NCBI GenBank assembly: GCA_948146395.1
Contig: OX411551.1
Span: 50,464,997-50,528,996 of the forward strand
DNA from: Fragum whitleyi
Taxonomy: Eukaryota; Mollusca; Bivalvia; Cardiida; Cardiidae
DNA: 64,000 nucleotides
Reading direction: 5' to 3'
Of the stretch, positions 18,043 to 61,324 are shown piece after piece (within the stretch, counting starts at the first letter, position 1; each line of letters opens with the position of its first letter). Both the position numbers and the translations under genes were made by a program. A model generated the notes under the pieces. The model searched no databases. It was not told the DNA's origin and worked only from the letters and a program-made list of their open reading frames with translations.

Positions 18043-19632
18043 AGAACATTTGATATTGTTGGAAATGTCACGCACAGGCTCATGTGAAGATTTTTGGGGT
18101 TCTCCTTCTGATTTCTTTGTCATTTTTATACGCCCGTGTAAAGACGGGGCGTATTATGTAATCACCCGGGGGGGGGGGGGGATTTCGGCGTCCGCCGGGC
18201 GAGTTGCGTCAATTTCTTAATCTGGAGCATAACTCTATCACCCTATGTTCTTCTGACTTCAAATTTAACAGTTATGTTTCTGTCATGATTACGGAGTGCA
18301 ATGCACAAGATCCGCAATTCTACCTATCTCATATTTTCCGTTATTACTCCTTGTTTTTTATACTTGGACATCTTGCAGTGTCGCGGGCAGAAAGTGAGAA
18401 TTTTTCACCTCGTTCTACTTCAAATTTACGTTTCTAAACTCTCCATGCCAAATTCTTATTTCTGTAGCTCTTTTTTCTACTGATTTTGTTCCACGATGTA
18501 TTAGCAACTACGTTTTTGCTTACAGCTTGTAACGTTAACGGGAAAGCTTTCTCAAATAAAACAATAACAGTCGATGTTATCAGGCCTCAAATATGGACAC
18601 ATAAATCTGGGTTCATTAACCCTAATGGGTTGATTCCTATTGATAGCAGGTGTCTTTCTGATTAGCTTTGTTATGTAAAAGCGTATCATAATTGAAAAAA
18701 AAAATACTCTATTTATTTCACAGATTACCCGATTTATTGACCGAATTTTGGACACAAACATTGACGCCAAAGTATCCATTTATTATTACTATAGTTTCAA
18801 TCGTAATTAACTGGCAAAGTTTTTATACGTATTGTTCAATCGAGTCTAATTTTATTTAGGAAAAAAAATCAAAACTTATCCGACTTACATTTAATAAGGT
18901 AACCATTGGATCCCTCTCACCTAAAGGCGGATTCACTCAGTTACAGGATAACATTGTGAAATTTAAAAAAAAAATGATTAGACGTTACGCAAGATACTGG
19001 TGACCCTTTGCGTTACAAATAGATTTGACGTCGGCGTTAATATAACGCTCCTTTTTTACTTTATAACTATCTTCATACCAACCTTTGCAAACGATACACA
19101 TGTAATTCTTTTATTGGAATGCTGTTAATCTTTGCAAAGATTTAAATACAAAAAGTTTTTTTTTTTTATGACACAAAATGGACACGGATTTCTGAAGATT
19201 CCGGTGCAAATCTAATGATATATGCAGAGTTGGATTGATTCGGTTTGATTTTGAAACACTCAAAGTAAAGATATACGGGCGATATTATACATTTCTAGCC
19301 ATAGACTGTTCAAAAATAAGATTTTGATTTACTAGTAATATGTATTTTCACATTATTGACTAGAAGTTATTATTTATATCTAAGATTTATAAGTGATTCC
19401 GAATAAATCGCGTTTATCTGAATCTCACTATGAATAGAAATTTGATATTTTTTTCATTTTATTCAGTTTGCAAAAAAATGTTTTCTTTTTAGGATGTTCT
19501 CAAACAGATCAGTTTATGACAGTATCATATCTCTTTTATATTTTATCTATTTATTTATTCATTTATCGTTTTGATTTTATTTTATTTTCATATTGATTGA
19601 AGTTTGAATCTCGACCTTCTTTTCAATATATA
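18043..19632. other. No gene; hairpin-headed repeat at 18127-18400
   Basis: The hairpin ACGCCCGTGTAAAGACGGGGCGT (18131-18153) is followed by a poly-G tract (about 18169-18181) and CTGGAGCATAACTCTATCACC, the same architecture as 16652-16941. The rest (18500-19632) is AT-rich without coding or repeat signal. Confidence 0.5.
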
Positions 19633-21523
19633 CTCAGAACAAGAAGTTAAGCGCCACAAGTTTTTAGACAGAAGATTTTTAAAGGCAGGGAGCCTGCATT
19701 AATTCAAAATAACAGAGATGTAAATATTGAGTTCCAATGTTGAAAATGGTATGTTGACTTGACAATTTCACAACAATACACGGATGGTGATACATTTTAT
19801 TGACTTTGTACCTTGAAATGTTAATGATGTATTTTCACCTATTTTAAAAAAATGAAAAACTATTGTCAAAGCCGACGTACGGTGTTGTCTATGACACGAA
19901 ACTTGGTTTTAGAAGTCAGATAACACAAATGCGATTAATTCCAGTCACATCTTAGTCAGTAGCTTGTGTAAGATCCGTGAGCATTGATCACTGCGCGCAC
20001 CCTCCTCGGCATGCCACGAATCAGCCTCTGGATGATGTGTTGAGGGATTTGCTGCCACTCCTGGTGCAGTGCTGCTTCTTACCCAACCACATTTTGTACA
20101 GGAGGCTCTCTCCGACGTATACGGCGCCCTAAAATGTACCACAGGTGCTCGATGGGGTTACGATCGGGACTACAAGCCGGCCATGGAATAGTGGTGATGG
20201 CTTCACGTTGCATAACTTCCGCCACGACTCTTGCTCTGGCGTTTTCATCCATGTAAACTGGTCTTGTGCGAAGAGGGTGATTGTCAAAATGTGGAATTAC
20301 CACAGGAAAAAGGATGTTATCGCGATATTTATCGCCAGTCAATGTTCCTGGAACTGTCACTAGGTCCAGTTTACAGCCGTAGGAGACACAACCCCATATC
20401 ATAACGGAGCCGCCGCCACCCTAATAGGTTGGTTGGACGTACTTTGGTGCAAATCGGGTGTTATGTTGTCTCCAAACATGAATTCGGCCATCGGTGACAT
20501 GCAACAACATCCTGCACTCATCTGACCGATGGATCCGGCGCCATGATGCCAAGTGCCAACGTGCCCTCGCTCTACACCATATTAGACGTTCATTGGTGTT
20601 TCTCTGTTGTAACTTTGGACGTTTCAGGGGTCTTCGTGCCTTATGCCCAGCCATCCGAAGTCGATTTCGCACTGTTGAAATAGAGACCGTCTGTGTGTAT
20701 TCCAGTTGTCCCTTTGTACAGGCGCACTGGTGAAGGGTAGACGTCTGACGTGACGCAAAAGTGCTCTATCCTCTCGAATAGACGTCACTCTAGGGCGTCC
20801 AGATATGACACAGTCCTTAACGTCGTTTGTCTGTGCGTGTTTTTGTACCAAACGTGTTATGATACTGTGGTGATACCCCAGCTGTCTGGCAATGGCTCTA
20901 CAAGACATTCCAGAATGTCGCATTCCAATTAATCGCCATCTTTCATTTGTATACAATCTACGCCTTGTCAAATCGAAATGTAAACAATTGCACGAGCTAC
21001 ACGACGTAAGTATCTCTGACAGAAAAGCTGATTTTCCACTTTGCACGAGCCCAGGTTTTACAGTCATTGCACGAGACTTGCTGAATATGCACGTGCATCC
21101 GAAACGTTTTTAATCAATAGCTATAGGTGTATTTTGTAAACTGAGCTCTGACGTAGGCGCTGAGTCCATTATCATAGGTAAATCGGGTATAATTAAAAAG
21201 CAAATGATAGGAATTTAGCCTGGTCCCTTCACTGCAATTATGAAAGTACATGTTTAAATGAACCTTACGTTTTAAGACAAGCAGTAACGGTGGTTTAAAA
21301 GGTAACTTTTAAACTTTCTCAATGCATTACTTTAACCTGGTTTACTTATTTCGAACAAATGGCACGAGAATCTAACGGTAAAAAGTTTATTTCACGGCTC
21401 ACCGCGCAAAATCTACCTATACAAGGTTGTTCTTACCGTTTGATAACATAGATACGTTATTAAAGTTTTCGATAGAAATGTTATTAACTTAAAACTTAGT
21501 GGCGCTTAACTTTATGTTCTGCG
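19633..21523 (-). mobile_element. Tc1-like DNA transposon with TIRs, inactive
   Basis: 1891 bp between TA dinucleotides (19631-19632 and 21524-21525). Left TIR CTCAGAACAAGAAGTTAAGC and right TIR, read on the minus strand, CGCAGAACATAAAGTTAAGC; both continue GCCAC. It contains the broken transposase at 19956-20977. The TA target and TIR length fit the Tc1/mariner superfamily. Confidence 0.88.
19956..20977 (-). pseudogene. Tc1-like transposase, disrupted
   Basis: About 340 residues' worth of transposase. The N-terminal helix-turn-helix region is at about 20977-20700 (NERWRLIGMRHSGMSCRAIA.. then SGRPRVTS). The first catalytic Asp is in HRSDECR (near 20546), the second region is MDENARARVV (near 20245), and the last acidic residue is in SPDRNPIEHLW (near 20150). 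The C terminus RRVRAVINAH.. ends at 19956. Lesions: a frameshift near 20680 (N-terminal part in another frame), an in-frame TAG at 20421-20423 just before the GGGGSVMIWG segment, and an in-frame TAA at 20079-20081. In addition, the expected second catalytic Asp appears as Glu and about three residues are missing after DENAR, which shortens the spacing to the final Glu to about 31 instead of 34. In life it would cut and paste the element at TA sites. The start is uncertain; the upstream frame extends to 21067. Confidence 0.88.
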
Positions 21524-22275
21524 TATATATCATGCGTAAATTTGGAGTATTTTAATTTATTCACTTATTTATTATTGTGGTAATCATTAACGAGTGACAC
21601 AAAATTCAAAATACAGATACAAATCAAATCAAGCATGTGAAATTCGAATACATTTAATCATATTAATTCTGCTGTTACTTGGTAACGTGGAACAAATCAA
21701 CGTCTCGTTCTGAAAAACAACGTAGGTGGGACATTTTTGGGTGACTTTTGTATTTATTAATAAAATCATTACTATTAGGATGAGAATTGAAAGAGTCATA
21801 TGAAAATCTACATTTTTTTTTATCTCTTTTACCTTTGCGACAAAAAAGGAAGAGGCTTATGCATAATTTGATGTAATTTTCGTTTTTATTAATTACCAAT
21901 TAGTATTTTCAGCGTTTTTTACAAGTTTTTCGGTTGAGTTAAGGAATTTAAATTATCTTCGTGCTGTTCTAATTTGTTGTTCTAAAAACTGTTAAATTTG
22001 ATCAATGTCTGTCCCTGCGGAGGGGATACATTGTAAAAAGGGGAAACAACTTCTTATATTTCATAAAAGAACACCAACAATTTCTTACTTCTCCTTCCTC
22101 TCCGTTTTCCTTCGTCTCGAGTTCTTTCTTCATTTGTCGTCTATTCGAATCGTCTGCTTCTATAGATGACATGGTTTAATCCTAGTCTATTTTAGCACAG
22201 ATTTCTTTGTCATTGCGTTGATTTGAATCGGTTTATTACGGTTAACGCCATTTTCGACTGACGTGGTCATATCAT
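21524..22275. other. No gene seen
   Basis: AT-rich. The frame 21675-21899 (-) is Lys/Asn/Phe-rich, without a domain, and not supported. Confidence 0.55.
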
Positions 22276-42994: not shown

Positions 42995-43084
42995 ATATGA
43001 TAATAATATTAATAATAATAATAATGATAAAAAACCCGAGGCATTGTGGTGTTTATATCTGTTTTTGATGTCGAATTCGGTAAT

Positions 43085-43380
43085 TTAGGAGGGCAAATTC
43101 GATATTATGTTAAAGATATGAACCAAACTATTACGATAAATCATGAACACCCTTAAAATTTACCATTGGTATATATCTTTCGCGTAACATATATCGCCAT
43201 TTAAAAATGACGTAATCCCTTATGCATTATGACGTATTTTCACATTCACAAAATACCGTTGCTATATGCTTGTAGCTCATTTACATAGTTATTACACCAG
43301 TAAGTAGATCTAATGCGAAAAAAAAATCAACTGAGTTATTTCCACTCCCGCATTATAGATTGTATTATAAACTGTGGTTA
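43085..43380 (-). mobile_element. Diverged copy of the TGACGTCA-bearing element, upstream of receptor exon 1
   Basis: TTACATAGTTATTACACCAGT.. and ATTGTATTATAAACT align with the end of the copy at 43886-44290 (TTGCATAGTTATTAAACTAG.. ATATTATAAACT). It ends about 15 bases before the splice-like AG that precedes the receptor start codon. Confidence 0.55.
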
Positions 43381-43400
43381 TTATATTTTCAGGCAGAAAC

Positions 43401-43857
43401 ATGAGCAAGTTGATTTTAATCAACTTAACGATACAGCTCTATATCATTTACTGTTCCTGTGTCAGCATGTCAGATCCACCTCTTTCAAATAAAGGGGAGG
43501 AAATGCGCGAGTCAGATAAAGAGGAAGGCAATTCCAATTCAAGTAAAAGGGAGACTACCGTGGCATCGGGGAAAGGTGAAACGGTCGAAGAAGTAACAAC
43601 GCCTGAGAATATGATGGGGCTCAGCCTAACACAGACAACAAGATCTAGCCCAAAGGATATAACACAGGAATTTGAAAGGGAGACTACCGCGCAACTCAAT
43701 ATAGTAGAGAAGCCCATCGCAAAGGACATCAGAGGGAAAATTAGCGAAACGATCGAAACATTTTGCCCATTGGTAGATATATGCGATGCTAATTCTTCTA
43801 ACGCTGAGTTGAACCGAAATGGTATTGTTGTACGAGGCAGTGTCTCTTGTTGTCAAG
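43401..43857 (+). CDS. Receptor-like gene, exon 1 (signal peptide, stalk, first half of Cys module)
   Basis: I chose the ATG at 43401 (AAAC before it, A at -3). The open frame continues upstream only into a TTTTCAG at 43386-43392, which is either a 3' splice site of a 5'UTR intron or chance. Residues 2-22 (SKLILINLTIQLYIIYCSCV) form a hydrophobic signal sequence. The next 110 residues are rich in Ser, Thr, Glu and Lys, as in mucin-like stalks. The exon ends SVSCCQ plus one base; the donor is CAAG|GTAACG, phase 1. Direct repeats ERETTA / KRETTV hint at internal duplication. Confidence 0.75.
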
Positions 43858-46800
43858 GTAACGCAAAGTAAAAAGAGGATCTTGAATGAGTGGTCATGTA
43901 ATACCGGATATATTAAACGAGTCAGCTAAAAATAGATAAAAACGAGACTGCGCCGAGTTTTTATCTGTTCATAGATGACGAGTTTAATAAATTCGTTATT
44001 TGATGAGCACAAATTTGATGTCCTATTTATGATATGCCCCGAATTTTGGTGATAAAACGAGAAAATTACGACATTTATCGAATCATGTTATTCCGCGAAA
44101 CATATAACGCCGTTTGCAAAATGACGTCAGCAGATCCATTATGACGTCATTTTCCAAACAAAAATATAACCTTGTTCTTGATTTTCAGTCCATTTGCATA
44201 GTTATTAAACTAGTGTAATAACACCCGTGTAATATCAAAAATATTCAACGGGGTTATTTCACCCCGGCGCCGTAGGTCATATTATAAACTTGATTATTTC
44301 ATTTATTCTTTCACTACTCCTCCAGTTTGAATAAACAGGCCTACAGTTAATCACATCGTAAAATTGACATTTATTTAGATCAAAACCATTCAAAATCAGT
44401 CGCTCAGCGCCCAAATCATTCATTAATACACTCGCTCCGATCACTTGAAAACGCTCCGAATCCGTCCAAAAACGCTTCAACTTGGTATTTTAACTTCATA
44501 GTTTTGTTGTTTTAAAATCATATCGCAATGGAATGAAAATTGTCTTTTACTGAGGTTAAAATCATTTAGTTAGTTTTCCTGCTTTTTCGTCTTGTAAATG
44601 TTACTTTTCAAATATTTTACAATTCCTTGTACATGTATTCCATGAATCATGTTTACAAACTCACTAACAGTGAAGATCACCATTCAGCTTCTTATCGTCC
44701 TTTTCGTGGCACTTTTGCACGAACAATGGTATTATCAAAAAGAGATATATATATATATATATATATAATACATACTTAGTGTTTTTTTATGAAAAAAATA
44801 TCTAACGAGGTTTGGGGAATTGATTATTGTCGAGGCTCTGCCACAATTCCCACAACCGAGTTAGATATTTTTTCATACAATACACTAAGTATGTATTATA
44901 TTTATCTTATAACGTCTATCTGCCTTGTTTTCATCGATGTTTCTAACCGAAATGCAAGTTTCTAAAAATAACCACATTATATCATTGTTCCAAAAATAAC
45001 TATGTGATATCATTAAAAAATATCATACGGAATGTTATCACACGGATATTTGTATAGTTATAAGATGAATTTAATAAAGATTCGAACAAGTGCCTTATGG
45101 TGTCGGCCTACCTTAAGGCCTGGCTCATGCTTTACTGAGTTATTCAGTTGGTTTCAATTTTATCTTGAGTTAATTATCTTTAATCTAATCCACAGGTTGT
45201 TCATGCCATCCGAACTGTAAAGATCGAATGAACTGTTGCTATCCAGAGGACTACAACACGACAGATAACCCTGTTGAATTTACCACTCCTTACCAATGCC
45301 TCTACAACCGACTAGGAAGGGATGTTCATATTGACGGGACTGTATCGTCCTATAGAACCATCGTATCGGCGCCAAAAGGTGGCTGTGTAAATTCCAGACC
45401 ATTGAGAGTGACTCCAGATGTCCTTCTCTACCCAACCTGCGACGATGTAAATGTTACAGCCCTTGGTCCGTACTTTCCCGTATATTCCAAGGAAACGGGC
45501 AATATCTACAGAAACATTTTATGTGCCCGTTGTCATGGAGTTCGGATAACTGAATTGTTTCAGGCCAATCTAGTCTGTGAAAGGAATGCCGTGATAAGAA
45601 GATCGCAAATTTCGATGTCAGAGAATCTTAATTTTTTGGATTCAGGAAAGCTTTCTCCGAAATGTTATGTAGATTTCAAGTTCAATAAAACAATAGAACT
45701 ACATAATGAACGCTGTTTCAGAGATTTGATTGCAACATGCACGGTGAAAAATTCGACAAGATTACTTGAACGTCTTAAGGAAAGTCCTACAAATTTAGAC
45801 ATAGGCATGGTTCAAGATCTTTGTGAAAATGGCATAGTATCGCCAACGTTACAACGGAAACAGTTGTACAAAAACATATACTGCGCAATGTGTGCTGAAA
45901 ATTCGATCAATCAAGTTCCATTAGTCTGCGATTATAACATGATCGACAGGACGTTTGCTGAATCAATTTATTACGTGCTAGATCACAGAGTCATGCATAC
46001 AATCGAAAACGTACCTTCAAAGAAACCAAGAGGGGTGTGTGTGACTACAGTGACTAACGGAGGCACAAAGGTACAGTAAGTTACATCGTGTAATTGACAT
46101 TCATCTCAATCGAAGCCATTACAAATCGCTCGCTGAGCGCTCCATTCATTCTTTACATTCACTCAAACCGCTCAAAAACGCCTCAAATGACTAAAAATTA
46201 CAAGATCGACAGCTACCTTCAATTTTAATGAAGCAAGATCCAAATCGCGATTAACTGAAAAAATTGAAATTTTTAGTGCCTAGTTGGTTTTTGAAGAAAT
46301 AAGTAGCCATTTATAGAACTTTTATGAATATTTTATTAAAGGGAGGTATTGCATATTGCTTATTTTGTTCAAACTGAACAAAATTTGCGCTAATTGTTTT
46401 CTCCCTTTAATTTCACCCAAAACTCGCTCCACACACCCATTCAAATTCATTCCAAAATCATTCATATTGTCAATTTTACGATGTTGTTTACTGTATGAAA
46501 CAAGAAGTTCAGGTACAGTTGATAACATCGTGAAATTTACAAAGTGGATGATTTTTGAATGGTTTTAAAATAAATTTGAATAAGTGTAACGATCGAGTTC
46601 TGAATTCTTTTCAAGGTAGGTAAACATGATCAATCGATATCTTTGTCAAATTGAACGATATTTTTACCCCCCTTTAATACAATCTACATACTTATCTGGT
46701 TTTGTGTATTCACGAACAACTCAGGAGCCTAAAATCAACACCAGTCAACTTAATCATGCATTTTTTTTATCGATTTGATTGAAATGTTAACCAATTTTAA

Positions 46801-48656
46801 ATGATTTCGAACCGATTTTAAACGATTTCGGAGCATTTTAAATAACTACAGCAATGAGCGAGTGATTTCGAATGGTTTTGATCGGAATGATTGTAAAATT
46901 CACGAAGAATTCTACCTGGTAGTTCAGGAGGAGAGTTTTTTCTATAACTGTTGACGGACGGAGAAACAGTCAGACGCCGAGCATTGATCAAGTACAAAAG
47001 CTCATATCGGGCACGTCGCGTTTAGGTGAGCTTAAATCGCTGATTGTCCTTATTAGCCATGCATTCGTTTTAATTTCTGTAACTTCACCGAAAACTAGAA
47101 AGTACTTATCCTAACCATAGTTCGTGATTCGAAGTCTTGTTACGGACGTTTCTTTAATCACTTTACAGTTAGCAGGGGTGCAGAAAACATCGTAAAATTG
47201 ACATTCATTCCGATCAAATTCATTCTTAAACATTCACTCAGCGCCCCATTCATTCATTCCAAACACTCACTCAAATCGATCGAAAAACTCTCCGAAATCA
47301 TTAGAAAACATTTACAAATCTTTCAAGACTTTTAAATATAAATCAAAATCGATTAATTGATTCTACGGTTTTATAAAGTAAAGTGTTTGATTGGTCAACG
47401 AAGACGAACAAACAGAAAAGTAAGTTTATCTTATTAAAGGGAGGTAATTGATAACGGTATCGCTAATTTTGTTCATCTTGAACAAAATTAGCAATATTGG
47501 ATTACCTCTCTTTAATTTCACTCAAAACTCGCTCTACACATTCATTCAATTTCATTCCGAAATCAATCAAAATTCATTCACCTTGTCAATTTCACGATGT
47601 TCCTTACTGTAAGAGAGGATTACGCAAGTGTAAAATCTTTATTTCACAATGAAACCCTATAATACTGGTACTCGTTTGAATTCAATGAGCACGGCCTATT
47701 GAAGAATTTTAATTTGAATTTCAGAATATTCCCTCTATCTGTAGCTCTACAGAAAGGTTACATTTTCTTTTCAGAATGAGGTTTGCCGAACTATACACTG
47801 TCCTTCAGGAAAGATACACAATGCCAGGGGGGAATGTGTTCTTGTCGGAAGCTTCATAAGTAGCGGAGAAGTCTTTGTGCCGGTAAAACTTACTCCTGAT
47901 GAAACAATCGACTTTAACACACAGGTCACAGATCAAGAAAAAAAACTACTGGTTCAGAACATCCTAATAAGCAAACCATGGTCAAATGCCTGGAGAGTAA
48001 AACTTATCAGGAGAAGAAGACAAGCAAATTGTAGTGAGAAATCCGTCGCTCTCATTCACCTGGAACCCCTAAACAAGGATGAAGATGCTTTCTTCCGCGA
48101 TGTTAACAAGTACATTCAGCTCCCATGGAAACTTAATTGGAAGAATAAAACATACAAACTCTCCCAAGCATTCATCGAATACGAAGTTAAATATTCAAGA
48201 ATGAAAAACCAGCGCACCTTCACATATATCCCAACCTGGCAAGTTAGGCAGAGTATGCTAAATATTTCAACTATCTATTCTGGTTGTGGAAAGATAGAAT
48301 GGGATCCTATTTTTGCCACACCACAGCAACGGTCTAGAGGTGGGGTTGCCATCAGCCGGCTGTATTTCTGTGACCAGATCGAGATGATACACAAAGACTT
48401 TACTTTGGGACCCGACAACACCTATTTGTACAGTAACCTTACAACAAGGGTACTATTTGACATGGAATTCGATCTAATCGAAACTCGAGACGGGCTACAT
48501 GCGCGGGTGTGTCGGGACGATACCATCTTCTACTCAACCAAAGCAAATGGAGCAAGAGTTTTAAAACAGCCAGTCGCGAAGATCTTCGTGCAAGTTCTCT
48601 TGGGCGTTGTTTTCCTCCTGTATGGATGTTTTAATATACAGTTAATAACATCGTGA
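43401..48656 (+). CDS. Adhesion-GPCR-like receptor ectodomain gene, three exons, 737 aa, no visible 7TM
   Basis: Exons 43401-43857, 45196-46070 and 47775-48656 join in phase (intron phases 1 and 0, GT..AG throughout) into one frame of 738 codons with the stop. Order of features: signal peptide (about 1-22), acidic Ser/Thr-rich stalk (to about 130), a CC..CxC..C..CC cysteine module (150-167), two copies of Y-x-N-x-x-C-A-x-C (256-265 and 376-385), a short CPSGKIHNARGEC segment (448-465), an extracellular region with R-V-C-R-D-D near the end, and one hydrophobic helix (about 714-730). Eight N-x-S/T sites support an extracellular fate. By memory of family traits, mollusc adhesion-GPCR-like receptors combine such a cysteine module, NxxCAxC motifs and a class-B 7TM domain. 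Here nothing after the first helix is coding, so the product is a single-pass or truncated form, or more exons lie beyond the window. Two MITEs modify the gene (see exon 2 and exon 3). Family assignment is inference. Confidence 0.7.
43886..44290 (-). mobile_element. TGACGTCA-bearing palindrome-tailed element, copy 2, in receptor intron 1
   Basis: The inverted complement of 14400-14805, aligned over its whole length with a palindrome at 43896-44000 and TGACGTCA at 44122 and 44142. It begins about 28 bases after the exon 1 donor. Confidence 0.8.
44344..44485 (-). mobile_element. ACATCGTG-family MITE, left end only
   Basis: CAGTTAATCACATCGTAAAA followed by ATCAAAACCATTCAAAATC and ..AACGCTCCGAATCC; truncated before the hairpin. 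Confidence 0.75.
44486..44765. other. Intron 1 sequence with an (AT)n run
   Basis: An AT dinucleotide repeat at 44745-44766 abuts the palindrome-cored repeat. Nothing else seen. Confidence 0.6.
44766..45066 (-). mobile_element. Palindrome-cored repeat, copy 2, in receptor intron 1
   Basis: Inverted relative to 9099-9410: palindrome 44766-44900, then AAATGCAAGTTTCTAAAAAT and ..TTATCACACGGATATTTG.. match the left flank of copy 1 in reverse. Confidence 0.75.
45196..46070 (+). CDS. Receptor-like gene, exon 2 (second half of Cys module, two NxxCAxC repeats)
   Basis: The acceptor is AATCCACAG|GT. The split glycine codon joins exon 1 to give CCQ-GCSCHPNCKDRMNCCYP, a spacing close to somatomedin-B-like or mollusc CxC..CC modules. 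Two similar blocks follow: IYRNILCARC then ..NLVCERN, and LYKNIYCAMC then ..PLVCDYN, each about 17-20 residues from Cys pair to the next Cys, so they look like an internal duplication. N-glycosylation sites: NTT, NVT, NKT, NST. The exon ends ..GGTK at 46070; the donor AAG|GTACAG is created in part by a MITE whose TA duplication (46072-46073) overlaps the GT. Any longer reading past the donor stops within three codons. Confidence 0.78.
46074..46493 (-). mobile_element. ACATCGTG-family MITE inserted in the intron 2 splice donor
   Basis: Complete copy, 420 bp: CAGTAAGTTACATCGTGTAA to ..TTTACGATGTTGTTTACTG, with TA at 46072-46073 and 46494-46495. The hairpin centre is at 46340-46400. The left TA shares its T with the donor GT. 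Confidence 0.9.
46516..46910 (+). mobile_element. ACATCGTG-family MITE in receptor intron 2, 3' end decayed
   Basis: Begins CAGTTGATAACATCGTGAAA, with altered hairpin and 3' half (GAGCATTTTAAATAACTACAG); ends near ATTGTAAAATTCACGAAG. It lies 20 bp from the previous copy in opposite orientation. Confidence 0.78.
47166..47609 (-). mobile_element. ACATCGTG-family MITE in receptor intron 2
   Basis: CAGTTAGC then an extra AGGGGTGCAGAA before AACATCGTAAAATTGAC; intact hairpin at 47440-47510; right end TTTCACGATGTTCCTTACTG followed by TA. Confidence 0.85.
47775..48656 (+). CDS. Receptor-like gene, exon 3 (juxtamembrane region and terminal helix)
   Basis: The acceptor is TTTTCTTTTCAG|AA, phase 0, giving NEVCRTIHCPSGKIHNARGE.. 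without a break. The next 250 residues carry four N-glycosylation sites (NCS, NKT, NIS, NLT), a basic RRRRQ stretch and paired cysteines near the end. The hydrophobic IFVQVLLGVVFLLYGCF is followed by NI and then QLITS-stop, the last six codons coming from a MITE (starting 48639). Without the MITE the frame would stop at the TAG now at 49044-49046, also right after NI. Alternatively a weak donor CCT|GTATGG at 48619 could splice inside the helix to an exon outside the window. Candidate poly(A) signals AATAAA: near 48844 and at 49080-49085. Confidence 0.72.
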   Translation, partial: NEVCRTIHCPSGKIHNARGECVLVGSFISSGEVFVPVKLTPDETIDFNTQVTDQEKKLLVQNILISKPWSNAWRVKLIRRRRQANCSEKSVALIHLEPLNKDEDAFFRDVNKYIQLPWKLNWKNKTYKLSQAFIEYEVKYSRMKNQRTFTYIPTWQVRQSMLNISTIYSGCGKIEWDPIFATPQQRSRGGVAISRLYFCDQIEMIHKDFTLGPDNTYLYSNLTTRVLFDMEFDLIETRDGLHARVCRDDTIFYSTKANGARVLKQPVAKIFVQVLLGVVFLLYGCFNIQLITS

Positions 48657-49041
48657 AATTGACAAGATGAATAATTTTGGTGTTACTTTGGAATGAAATT
48701 GAATGAGTGTATGGAGCGAGTTTTGAGAAAATTTAACGGGAGGTAATCCATACCGCTAATTTTGTTCTCTTTAATTAAGCAGCCTTAATTTTCAGTTTAT
48801 GTGTCTTTGTGGACAAGACAGACACATTAATAACCACTGCAGGTAATAAAATCGTAAAATAATTCTATCGATTTGAATTAAATATTGATCGGTTTGAACG
48901 ATTTCGTAATGTTTTCTATTGATTTCGGAGTTTTAATGGTCGTTTTGAGTGAGTGTTCGGAACGAACGAATGGAGCGCTGATTGAGTGATATTGAATGGT
49001 TTTGATCGCTGTGAGTGTCAATTTCACGATGTTTTTAACTG
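48639..49041 (+). mobile_element. ACATCGTG-family MITE at the 3' end of the receptor frame
   Basis: Complete, 403 bp, TA at 48637-48638 and 49042-49043; CAGTTAATAACATCGTGAAA to TTTCACGATGTTTTTAACTG. The hairpin has been reduced to one arm (GGGAGGTAATCC, 48740-48770). Confidence 0.9.
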
Positions 49042-49470
49042 TATATAGTTTAAGGACAAATTGTAGGATGGACATGTGCAATAAACATTTGCCTTTGAAA
49101 TATGGACAAAAAGGGCTTGTAAACAGACTTAACTGAATTAAAACTATCAAACTTGAAAACGTAGTCTTAAGTCGTTATTTAGTAGGTTGACACGCCGTCT
49201 TCTATGGTGAATATGCTCTTGGTTTGACCTAAAGATATTTAACTAAAAGGTCACTGTATGTAAGCTCTGGAGGGATATTTGGAGCAAATGGTAAGGACTA
49301 ATAAGTTAGCTCTTATTACTTAATTCTTTTGTTAAAACTTATTAATTCTAAAATATTTATTTGATATATCTTATTTCGTATAAATTGTTTAGACATCTAC
49401 AACTAAACTAAATGCGCTCCGATGTTAAATCGTTTATTTACATTTGCAGTCAGAACCGCCTACTCTACTA
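49042..49470. other. Possible 3' UTR of the receptor gene, otherwise nothing
   Basis: AATAAA at 49080-49085; AT-rich sequence without repeats or frames. Confidence 0.4.
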
Positions 49471-49538
49471 TAGTTTAGTTAAAGAACATCATGAAATTGA
49501 AATTCACTCAATCAAAACCATTCTAAATTGATCACTGT

Positions 49539-50790
49539 GAGACGTCGCAGTAACGTCGGGCTATTTTAAGAAAATTAGTCATATTTTTGTTTTAATTTGA
49601 AATAAAATCGCTGTACAGCCTAAAACAGCACATCATTGTACATCATTTTAAAGCTTTCGAAAAGCTCCATCTAACAGACACTAAATTCTGATACCCATGG
49701 CTGTGGAAAAAAAATAATATCGAGTAAACTATAGAAAAATCGTCAAAAAGCGCATGTAACGCGTAACATGCTAATCTTTCAATACATGTTTAATATGCCA
49801 TAAAATCGCGGATACGCTCTTTATCGTCGTATAATTTAAGACATAGGTACCTAAAATACTAGTCCTTATACAGTGTGAATTTGAAAGTTTCTAATATAAT
49901 TTTGCGAAAAGCTCTTCACGTAAACAAAATAGCGGAAAGTGTAACGCTGCTAAAAATACAGCAAAAAATGAGGACTAAGAAATTTCAACGTAAAAAAAGA
50001 CACACAAAATGAAGGAAATTGTTAAATCTAAAAACATTTAAGAAAAATGGTCAGATTTTTATTTCTTCAGTTTGAATTTTGTTTATTTGCGTGTCTTAGT
50101 TAAATACAAAATTTTCGCGTGAAAAAGTCTGAAAAAATGTCACGCTTTTTAAAATAACGTCATTTTTTTCGCACCATTTTCACGAGGAGTAACTAAACTC
50201 TTATAAAATGTCCATGAAATGAAATAAAAATTGAACTAGAAAAAATGGTCAGTCCACTATTTTCAAAAATATATAACAATCTATATTTTGTGGATTTAAC
50301 ACTAAATGCGAGAATGCTGAAAAAGTCTGAAAAAAATGTCACACTTTCTCATTTTAATGACGTTTTACTTTGCGAGTTTCGCGTGAGATAAATTATTTCG
50401 AAATTAATGGCAGAAAATGATATACTGACCGGTTTAACTTAAATAAGAAATTTTCCTCGGTTTTGATGAGTTAAAAGAATAGCAAGACCAACAATATTAA
50501 GTCTTAATAATTTTTATAAGCCCTTTTTTAAGTTATTCGGAAATCCAATGATTTTGTTTATACAAAATTGATTTTGTCACGTAAATACAGAGTTTCTACA
50601 TCCTGAAAATAATTGATACAAATCTGAACATGATAGTAATTCACATTTTTTATCACCCCTTTTTATATAATTCAGAATATGGCATATGGTTGTTTCAAAT
50701 GAAACGCGTTTGTTTTTTCTCCAATTTTACGCTGCAAAAATAAAGTCAAATTACGTTACGCTTTGTAGCCTCAGTTCCCTGCGACGTCTC
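49539..50790. mobile_element. 1252-bp element with 12-bp perfect TIRs, nested in a MITE
   Basis: Begins GAGACGTCGCAG and ends CTGCGACGTCTC. The interior is AT-rich, with two similar blocks GAAAAAATGTCACGCTTTTT.. (about 50132) and GAAAAAAATGTCACACTTTC (about 50330). No transposase. The target duplication is unclear. Confidence 0.72.
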
Positions 50791-57659: not shown

Positions 57660-58224
57660 TTTTGATCGCTTTCGGAGCGCTTTAAAAAACAGGAGGCCCA
57701 TGAGGTCCTGAGACCGCGCAGCCCATGTGATAGTGCTACGTGTATTCAAGGTATTACAAAAAATTTCATGAAAATATATCGATAAATGAAGGAGGACTTG
57801 TGTTGACGAGAATATTTACTTAAAGGTCCATTTTCCCATGACGCCGCATAATTGCACCAAATGGCAAAGTTGTGGCCTTGGTCACATGAGAAATATTTTG
57901 TTTAAGTTTTATGACAATCAATGGATAAATGAAGGAGTTGTGAAAACAAGAAATAATAAATATGACATAAAAATGCCTTTTCCCATGACACAGCATTTTA
58001 TAACCAAACATCCGTGAAATGCACATGGTCATTTGATAAGGGACATTCTATGAGAGTTTTTTTTGCAAATGTATCTATAAACAAAGGAGGAGTTGTGCTA
58101 TCAAGGAAGTAAACATTAAAGACCATTTTTACTTGATATTGCATATCACCAAATGGCAAAATAAATGCGGCCATGGTCATATGAGAAATATTCTGTTCAG
58201 TTTTAATGAAAATCTTTGTATAAA
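57660..58224 (+). repeat. Degenerate tandem array, left of the LINE
   Basis: Units carrying GGAGGACTTGTGTTGAC / GAAGGAGTTGTGAAAAC / GGAGGAGTTGTGCTATC at about 57790, 57932 and 58087, with TTTTCCCATGACGCCGCAT-type blocks. Continues after the LINE at 61658. Confidence 0.75.
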
Positions 58225-61200
58225 GACCTGTATATTTGTTTAGTGTATATACCTCCAGAAGAGTCTAGTTTATATAAAACACATTCTTCTAACATTTTTG
58301 AATTTGATTTCTATGAAAAACTTAATACTGATTTACAAAATTATATGGATTCAGGTGAAATTTTTATTTGTGGTGATTTAAACTCACGAGTTGGTAACAA
58401 AGCAGATTTTGTAGAGCGATTAGGATTAGACAGGTTTGTGCATGCAATTAGCCCTGAACTGTCGGTTTCAATCCCCGTTCGCAAATCACGTGACGCACAC
58501 GTTAACGGTTTCGGTAACAAGCTATTGCCTTTTTGTAAGGAGAATAGTTTTCTTATTGTGAATGGTCGATTGGATGATGGAAATAATACATGTTATAAAT
58601 TAACCAATGGTAGAGCTGGTTCAAGCTTAGTTGACTATCTAATTACGGACTATCGGAATTTTGGAATGATAAAGGATTTTGAAGTATTAGACCTGAACGA
58701 ATACTCCGATCACTGTGCATTGCAGTATTCATTCAATTTTAATACGTCGTACTATAGTAGCTTGAAAAATGAAGATGTACATGCAACAAGCACAAACTCG
58801 CATATAGTAGATAAGATTATCTGGGATCCAGAGAAAAAGGATGTTTTTTCACAAGCTTTAATTGATAATACAGATAATTTTGATGAAATTGTCAACAATT
58901 TGACGACAAACAACAGTAATATTGATGAAAGTATAGTATCGGTGAATAATTTAATGTTAAAAATCTCAAAACGAATTTTTGGCAAAACATACGTCGTAAA
59001 AAATGAGTCGAATTATAATAAATGTAAATGGTTCAATGATAAATGTAAGGAAGCCAGATCTGTATTTATGAAAAGTAAACGCATTTTTAAAAAATATCCG
59101 TCGGAGTTCAACAAAACTGAGTTTCTCAAACATAGAAATCATTATGCATATGTTAAGAGGCAAGAAAAACGTAAATACTTTTCGGCAGAAGGTGTGCGAC
59201 TTTCAGAATTAAGCAGAAAGAATAGCAACCAGTTTTGGAAAGGGTTAAAGAAATTTAATGGGGGTAGGCCCCAAGATATACCAATATCAGCCCAGGAGTT
59301 TCTCAATCATTTTGATAATTTATCAAATAATGTCAACGAAAATAATTTTGATACAGATGAGCTGTTGTTAGAGACAGACATTTCTATACAAGATCTGGAT
59401 AAACCTTTTACTTAAGAAGAGATTATCTCAAATATTTCTCAACTAAGCAGAAATAAGAGTCCTGGTACCGATTGTATTAATCCCGAGTTCTTCATTGATA
59501 GTAAACACTTTATAGCGCCATATTTATTAACTATTTTTAATAAAATATATGAAACTGGTACATATCCAGAAATATGGACCAATGGTATCATAATACCTAT
59601 ATTCAAAAAGGGTTCAAGAGATGATCCAGGTAACTATCGGGGCATAACCCTGATAAATACTATGGCAAAACTCTTTTCCTTGTGTCTCCGAAACAGACTG
59701 AATAAGTATTGTGAAGAGAATGATATGTTCTCGGATATGCAATTTGGATTCAGGGATAAAAAGGGAACTATAGATTGTATATTTATTTTACATTGTATTA
59801 TCCAAAATATTTTGTCTCATAATAAAAAACTATATTGTGCTTTCATTGACTATGAAAAATGTTTTGATACCATAAACAGAGACTTTCTAATACATGAGCT
59901 TATAACATCGGGCTTAAGCTCAAAATTTGTAAAAATTATTCAATCATTGTACAAATCAGTAACCTCTTGTATCAGAGTTTCTAGCAAAGATAATCCCTCA
60001 GATTTTGTCAATATTTCAGTCGGTTTGAAGCAAGGCGAGCCACTTTCTCCCATATTGTTTATTTTGTTCGTTAATGACATAAGTGAAACATTTGATTTTG
60101 ATAACTTGACAGAGAATGACATGAATTTGCTATCTATTTACTATCTTTTATTCGCAGATGACATGGTTCTATTCACTACTGATAAATTAAGCTTACAAAA
60201 ACAACTTGATTGCATCGATGAATATGCCCTTAGATGGGGTCTTAAAATCAATGTAAGTAGAAGCAAGATATGCGTTTTTGAAAAAAGGAGTTCACATTGT
60301 GATTTTTGTTGGTCTATCGGTGGAGAAATTTTGGAAAAAGTAGATAGCTTTAGTTATTTAGGTGTTAAATTTACCAAAAACGGATCTTTACGAGATGCTA
60401 TTAAATCTCTTTCAGATCAAGGCCTTAAGGCTATGAATAATTTACTATCACTGTTCCGTAAAGTGCCATTAGATATCAAAGTCAAACTTTCGCTTTTTGA
60501 CCGAATGGTTTCTCCCATTCTTTTGTATGGTGCGGAAGTTTGGGGAATATACGGCATAGGCGACGTTGAAAATACATATTAGATTTTGTAAATTGATATT
60601 AGGGGTTCGTAAACAAACTCCAAATTATGCAGTATACGGAGAACTTGGAAGATATCCTTTAACTACGATAGCCATGGAGAGATCTTTTAATTACTGGTTG
60701 AAAATTAAAAATAATAATGATAACCTAGTATACAAAATATTTAGTGAACAATGCATGAATCAAAAACAATTGCCGTCATTTTGGACGAATAGAATTCAGA
60801 AAAAGTTAGATGATCTAGGACTTACTTATTTTTGGAATAAACAGCTACATTCACCTTCAGACTTTAAAGTAATACAAATGCGTATTAGAGATACCTTCAG
60901 ACAAAATTGGCATGCATATATTACAAATTGTTCTAAACTAAAATATTACTGTAATTACAAACTAAATTTTGAATTTGAAGAATATTTGGTCAACTTGAAA
61001 AACATTTCAATCAGAAAACAGGTAACACAGTTTAGGCTCTCTTCACACAACTTGGCAGTGGAATTTGGAAGATTCGAGAATGTAAATATCCAAAATAGAA
61101 TATGCTTGATGTGCAGCCTTAATCAAATAGAAAACGAGTACCACTTTCTTTTCATATGTCCAAAATACTCTGAAATAAGAAAGAAATATCTTAACGTCAA

Positions 61201-61324
61201 GTGGCCTAACGTTAATAAGTTTAATATTCTCATGTCTACCCAAAAAAGAAAAACCCAGTTTAAAGTTGGAAAATTTCTTAAACAAGCAATGGAATATCGC
61301 AATTCTTGTCTAAACTCTAAATAA
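58225..61324 (+). pseudogene. LINE ORF2: AP endonuclease, reverse transcriptase, C-terminal zinc region; two lesions
   Basis: The endonuclease part (58225-58740) shows VYIPPE, ICGDLNSRVGN, DYLI and YSDHCALQ, the last three being conserved catalytic or structural motifs of APE-type LINEs; its N-terminal third is absent. A linker with many Lys/Asn follows, then the RT domain (about 59450-60560) with NYRGITLI, GFRDKKGT, a CAFIDYEKCFD Asp box, GLKQGEPLSP and FADDMVLF. The C-terminal part has FCKLILGVRK, YGELGRYPL and a C-x2-C..H-x4-C zinc motif (CLMC..HFLFIC, near 61107-61158). Lesions: an in-frame TAA at 59413-59415 and a one-base frameshift around 60568-60575, probably in an A run, after which the frame continues to 61324. 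It would nick target DNA and prime reverse transcription. The clade is not assigned. Confidence 0.88.

Follow-up and report, generated by a model that had tools for sequence, protein, structure and literature searches.

The window, a 64,000-nucleotide stretch (G000:C9:50464997-50528996) of a 1.22 Gb genome, carries on its + strand a three-exon gene of 737 codons plus stop, hereafter the query gene, with one MITE at the donor of exon 2 and another at its stop codon. The features are listed below, where a slash separates exon from intron.

43401..43857, + strand: coding exon 1 from the ATG, read from the sequence; donor AAG/GTAACG, phase 1, joining exon 2 in frame
45196..46070, + strand: exon 2; acceptor ccacag/GTTG, last codon AAG, phase 0; from the open frame and 21 paralog exon-2 loci
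46041..46058, + strand: 9-nt tandem duplication GTGACTACA/GTGACTAAC, 7/9 identical
46071..46076, + strand: predicted splice donor GTACAG, with GTA ancestral and CAG from the MITE; from sequence, matrix scoring and paralogs
46072..46073, + strand: left TA target-site copy, at donor positions +2/+3; from sequence and TIR scan
46074..46493, + strand: MITE of 420 bp with an inner palindrome at 46335-46411; from TIR scan, alignment and genome search
46076..46081, + strand: MITE-borne consensus donor GTAAGT, phase 2, a competing candidate; from donor scoring
46494..46495, + strand: right TA target-site copy; from sequence and TIR scan
46514..46915, + strand: second family copy in intron 2, more diverged; right end degenerate, coordinates including the left TA, K2P 0.373 from the window consensus
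47165..47611, + strand: third copy of the family, in intron 2; left end approximate
47751..47752, + strand: alternative acceptor AG, ctctacag/AAAGG, in frame with the MITE-borne donor
47773..47774, + strand: acceptor AG of exon 3, ttttcag/AATGAG; paralogs L015 and L026 have the acceptor and the first codon at the same position
47775..48656, + strand: exon 3, with its frame open as far as a stop that lies within another MITE
48639..49041, + strand: MITE of the same family where the coding region ends, with TA at 48637-38 and 49042-43, giving the residues QLITS and the stop

The stop-to-stop frames of exons 2 and 3 span 296 and 303 codons; when the window was shuffled 20 times, no frame was longer than 172 codons. 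Intron 2 (46071-47774) is 1,704 nt long and holds three copies of one MITE family. The N-terminus encoded by exon 1 is hydrophobic and signal-peptide-like by appearance, and the C-terminal tail of the product is hydrophobic as well. Searched with the spliced protein, the genome gave 77 matching stretches, including the query gene's own two, so the gene belongs to a large paralog family; its members are rich in Cys and end in a short hydrophobic tail that looks GPI-anchor-like. In the protein search outside the genome, none of 3,770 candidates reached E <= 0.001. The sole Pfam match for exons 2 and 3 was a sub-threshold Somatomedin_B in exon 2 (E 0.77), exon 1 gave no Pfam match at E <= 0.01, and nothing in Rfam reached its gathering score over 43000-50000.

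A preliminary description of this DNA had placed the AAG that ends exon 2 at 46070, the donor GTA at 46071-46073 and a TA copy on each side of a MITE. The sequence and the TIR scan bear out these coordinates and letters, and the insertion of a MITE into the donor region is borne out by the TSD, the TIRs and the multicopy family. The element runs CAGTAAGTTACATCG...CGATGTTGTTTACTG. It has the TA target-site duplication and the terminal inverted repeats (TIR scan and alignment) of a Tc1/mariner-type MITE and, at 420 bp, is multicopy and too short for a transposase; the family resembles such MITEs in its TA duplication, TIRs starting with CAGT, shortness, AT-richness and copy number. In the window, 41 family termini are recognisable and TA precedes 31 of them, a proportion somewhat favoured by the scan string, which itself contains TA. 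TA stands at both ends in 7/9 aligned genome copies. The search of the 1.22 Gb gave 8,992 first-look candidates, and all 40 that were scored matched, the 39 other than 46074-46493 being 78-82% identical. The inner palindrome (TTAAAGGGAGGTAAT...) is present in many family copies and is perhaps an older nested element. The window also contains a Tc1-like element (19626-21530, - strand), which has 41-nt inverted ends and a transposase (DDE_3, HTH) that is broken up among several frames. Because these ends differ from those of the MITE, it does not appear to be the evident partner of the family. A LINE-like element with a reverse transcriptase (RVT_1) lies at 58210-61324 (+ strand).

With the MITE and one TA removed, the joined flanks read AAGGTATGA, and the insertion thereby changed the donor from AAG/GTATGA (empty) to AAG/GTACAG (filled). 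The preliminary description had stated that GT was kept and that positions +4 to +6 were replaced. The replacement holds, while the retained part has to be corrected to GTA, with TA occupying intron positions +2/+3. It had also overlooked the GTAAGT at 46076, which sits in the MITE end 5 nt downstream of the exon-2 donor and is in frame only with the upstream acceptor (47752/47753). Both ends of this MITE copy read CAGTAA where the nine-copy consensus has CAGTTA, and GTAAGT is present in 3/41 window termini of the family. We rejected a gain of GTAAGT after insertion on these two observations, and the motif was probably inherited from the source copy.

The paralogs of the same genome support the exon-2 donor at 46071, which had previously been inferred from the query gene, although their own donors are likewise placed by homology. 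Residues 282-287 of 292 are where many of the exon-2 matches stop, and those of exon 3 mostly start at 293-296. A phase-0 GT follows the last conserved Cys by exactly seven codons at 19/21 paralog exon-2 loci, the misses being L022 (8 codons) and L035 (9 codons). The spacing is 10 codons in the query gene, for which the tandem duplication at 46041..46058 would account. Among 14 further distant loci, read from the tails of sequences fetched for another purpose, 10 have the Cys, seven residues and a Val codon (GTN). At the other end of the intron, the two nearest paralogs with exon 3 start it at the acceptor position of the query gene (cag/AACGAGGTTTGCCG in L015 and cag/AAGAAGGTTTGTCG in L026), and six more distant paralogs begin exon 3 within a few codons of it. 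No recognisable MITE end faces the exon at the donor GT in any of the 21 paralogs, the nearest being 31 nt downstream. The phase-0 frame, open on both sides, and these homologous donors without a MITE also support the earlier claim that the MITE lies in a pre-existing donor. Since the paralogs share the donor and acceptor positions and have no MITE at the donor, it is well supported from sequence comparison that the MITE entered an already existing donor and that the intron was not made by it.

The strength of the filled donor is a separate question. For a donor matrix we used 15 of the paralog donors and omitted the other six (L022, L024, L027, L034, L035 and L039); several of these are weak, and their omission biases the result to strong sites. 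This matrix gave 6.74 for the empty joined site, 0.35 for the filled site and 2.74 for the MITE-borne GTAAGT; when each of the 15 paralogs was left out in turn, only L023 scored as low as the filled site. A textbook matrix gave 0.54, 3.22 and 2.24 for the filled, empty and MITE-borne sites, respectively, and within 45900-46199 it ranked two GTs above 46071, namely GGG/GTGTGT at 46035 (phase 0) and ACA/GTAAGT at 46076 (phase 2). U1 duplex energies computed without a fixed register point in the opposite direction (-7.9 for the filled, -5.6 for the MITE-borne and -5.7 for the empty site). The matrices thus predict a filled donor weaker than the empty one, and because the duplex energies disagree with them, its strength is not settled. 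RNA folding predicted a partly paired donor in the filled allele and led to no clear conclusion. G is absent from +5 in 9/21 homology-placed paralog donors, and seven of those nine have the exon-side AAG. On this basis, AAG/GTACAG seems weak yet within the range that the gene family tolerates.

The MITE at the donor differs by a K2P of 0.193 from the consensus of 12 window copies, itself among them, and by 0.166 from the consensus of nine genome relatives, with 30/424 sites private relative to those nine. Because the source copies were not identical, the time since insertion is at most what these two values give; the insertion in the donor is apparently old. A divergence of 0.1 substitutions per site would, in the absence of selection, be expected to put about 10 stops into 731 codons, and none is present. 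This stop-free frame, together with the divergence of the MITE, points to a gene that probably remained spliced and under selection after the insertion.

From the observed element, TSD, frame, and donor and acceptor homology with the paralogs, we infer the order of events, the change in donor strength and the splicing. We consider it likely, with a probability of about 0.72, that 46071 is still the main donor and that exon 2 is spliced from 46070 to 47775 after the entry of the MITE into the existing donor. A TA-targeting MITE of the Tc1/mariner type would have inserted at the TA that occupies +2/+3 in the intron-2 donor. The TA duplication would have preserved GTA, while positions +4 to +6 and the remaining intron were pushed downstream and the CAG of the MITE took their place. 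The U1 site, carried by the exon-side AAG and GTA, most likely still works in phase 0, because the gene stayed intact, and the GTAAGT 5 nt downstream would be expected to compete with this donor, which is predicted to be weaker than before. The spliceosome might instead have moved to this MITE-borne ACA/GTAAGT, which matches the consensus at +1 to +6 and outscores the filled donor in both matrices. Combined with the in-frame acceptor 47752/47753, it keeps the frame open into exon 3, and the protein gains nine residues (VQKVTFSFQ). However, the usual acceptor at 47775, the position at which the two nearest paralogs begin exon 3, would then cause a frameshift, the exon-side match (ACA) is poor, the U1 duplex energy is no better, and chance alone may well place an in-frame AG within 30 nt. 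We therefore regard such a shift as unlikely.

The other readings have still less in their favour. If GGG/GTGTGT at 46035 were the donor, the MITE would lie 37 nt inside the intron and be irrelevant to it. This site, likewise overlooked in the preliminary description, is in phase and outscores every other GT between 45900 and 46199 with the textbook matrix, but it scores only 0.45 with the paralog matrix, and the intervening stretch 46035-46070 contains the Cys kept before the paralog donors and is strongly coding. The coding score of this 12-codon tail, which was left out of the training set, exceeds that of 93% of 686 overlapping exon windows and is reached by none of 5,522 overlapping open non-coding windows. 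We rejected 46035 on coding content and paralogs, and its use is very improbable. A decaying gene, in which splicing no longer matters, is compatible with the other readings and would fit the damaged donor, the MITEs at two coding ends and the lack of any scoring homolog in the outside protein search. We find it rather improbable, as all three exons are open over 737 codons despite the divergence of the inserted MITE. Least credible of all is an introner-like origin, with the intron made by the MITE. A transposon end and its TSD make up the predicted donor, as is described for some introners (PMC9860276), but the MITE makes up just 420 nt of the 1,704-nt intron, and the homologous donor and acceptor positions of paralogs without a MITE there refute this origin unless all of them lost a MITE exactly.

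At the other end of the coding region, the exon-3 protein tail of the query gene reads NIQLITS. The flanks of the MITE at 48639-49041 remain open when joined without it; the former protein end is accordingly uncertain, and we dropped the idea that removal of this MITE gives a stop right at its site. We surveyed exon 3 in 33 stretches taken from 39 non-query rows, leaving out the stops of C17:1474163, two at C1:81402 and C3:68282723; one further row is known only as L026 and another lies in the same stretch as L056. Within these 33 stretches and the query gene, a MITE end contains the stop in the query gene, in L043, in L045 and in a C17 cluster, whose seven loci we took as a single event; in L058 a MITE end begins directly past the stop. 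The MITE-derived C-termini at the exon-3 ends of L043, L045, L049-L054, L067 and L058 read IQLVASRN, IQLVTSYN and FYS/FYC. L044 is 62% identical to L045 and has no MITE at its stop, from which L045 most simply gained its MITE after their split. Identity between L043 and L045 is 35% for the proteins and 67% for the MITEs, and the copy in the query gene is oriented opposite to both of theirs. The cases in the query gene, L043, L045 and the C17 cluster appear to be independent of each other.

We then asked how often MITE ends lie at exon edges, covering the exon-2 edges and, at exon 3, the stop side. At 27 exon-3 loci, after seven were set aside (six of the C17 cluster and one near-duplicate), 5/9 gene-facing MITE ends lie <=30 nt from the stop (0.43 expected under uniform placement, P 2.6e-5). 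At 22 exon-2 loci, 7/17 facing ends lie <=100 nt from an exon edge (1.15 expected, P 7e-5). When the query's own ends are excluded but its flank stays in the denominator, the counts are 4/8 (P 3e-4) and 6/15 (P 2.8e-4), respectively. No such MITE end is nearby at 15/22 exon-2 loci and 22/27 exon-3 ends. A second set of 14 distant paralogs is suggestive only (2/6, 0.41 expected, P 0.059), with both matches at the detection limit (20/28) and the end of the open frame as a stand-in for the donor. MITE ends are also found 7 and 22 nt upstream of the exon-2 acceptors of L032 and L034. The one in L032 (gatgttactaactgta), which stops 7 nt short of exon 2, contains CTAAC, which we take to be branch-point-like, and the MITE may supply a branch point or pyrimidine tract in both loci. 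The clustering at exon edges exceeds the uniform expectation in these tests, which are post hoc, confined to one gene family and a uniform null, and some of the events counted may be shared (L032/L034, L018/L024). The same pattern could arise if MITE ends were better preserved near exons. Only tentatively, and with more doubt than confidence, do we suggest that the family lodges preferentially at exon edges, its ends being pre-adapted or targeted to exon borders and lending signals to genes without making introns. Under this reading, the signals lent would be donor bases in the query gene, branch-point or acceptor-side sequence in L032 and L034, and C-termini with stops in the query gene, L043, L045 and the C17 cluster.

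Insertions of transposons in or beside host splice sites, such as Tc1 in C. elegans and Ds in maize, alter splice choice. The query gene resembles them in having an insertion near a splice site and differs in that the insertion is apparently old, the gene intact and GTA exactly retained. No case of a MITE's TA duplication at donor +2/+3 was found in the literature on transposon splice sites, stop codons, introners and mollusc MITEs, covered at the level of titles and abstract openings with most subscription papers outside. In introners, a DNA transposon with TIRs and a TSD supplies a splice site, and some 5' splice sites come from the TSD, according to Gozashti et al. (2022; PMC9860276). In the query sequence, the TSD TA lies at positions +2/+3 and the TIR at +4 to +6 of the predicted donor, so that this MITE may likewise contribute a splice site. 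In contrast to an introner, which creates a whole intron at an intronless site, paralogs without the MITE share the donor and acceptor; only +4 to +6 and the following intron were replaced, and the TSD is the 2-bp TA. As the intron is older than the MITE, we do not regard the query donor as an introner case.

Transposon-supplied splice-site sequence is already known, and the query case is ordinary as a kind. The 32 merged family stretches compared with 5,109 TA dinucleotides correspond to about 0.6% of the TA in the window being occupied, from which, as a rough estimate, MITE insertions at GTA donors would be rare per gene and expected many times per genome. An exact MAG-GTA adjoins the MITE left end in 53 of the 100 places listed, out of 3,315 with <=2 mismatches, regardless of exon context. 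In the query gene, which is intact, a transposon inside a splice signal can be followed base by base, and homologous donors left unoccupied elsewhere in the genome serve as the reference. RNA data on it would reveal to what extent positions +4 to +6 can be exchanged and whether splicing tolerates a tandem donor (GTACAGTAAGT). The recurrence of MITEs at exon ends and stops would, if other genes confirm it, bear on the choice or survival of MITEs at exon borders, where their settling is a suspected step in intron gain.
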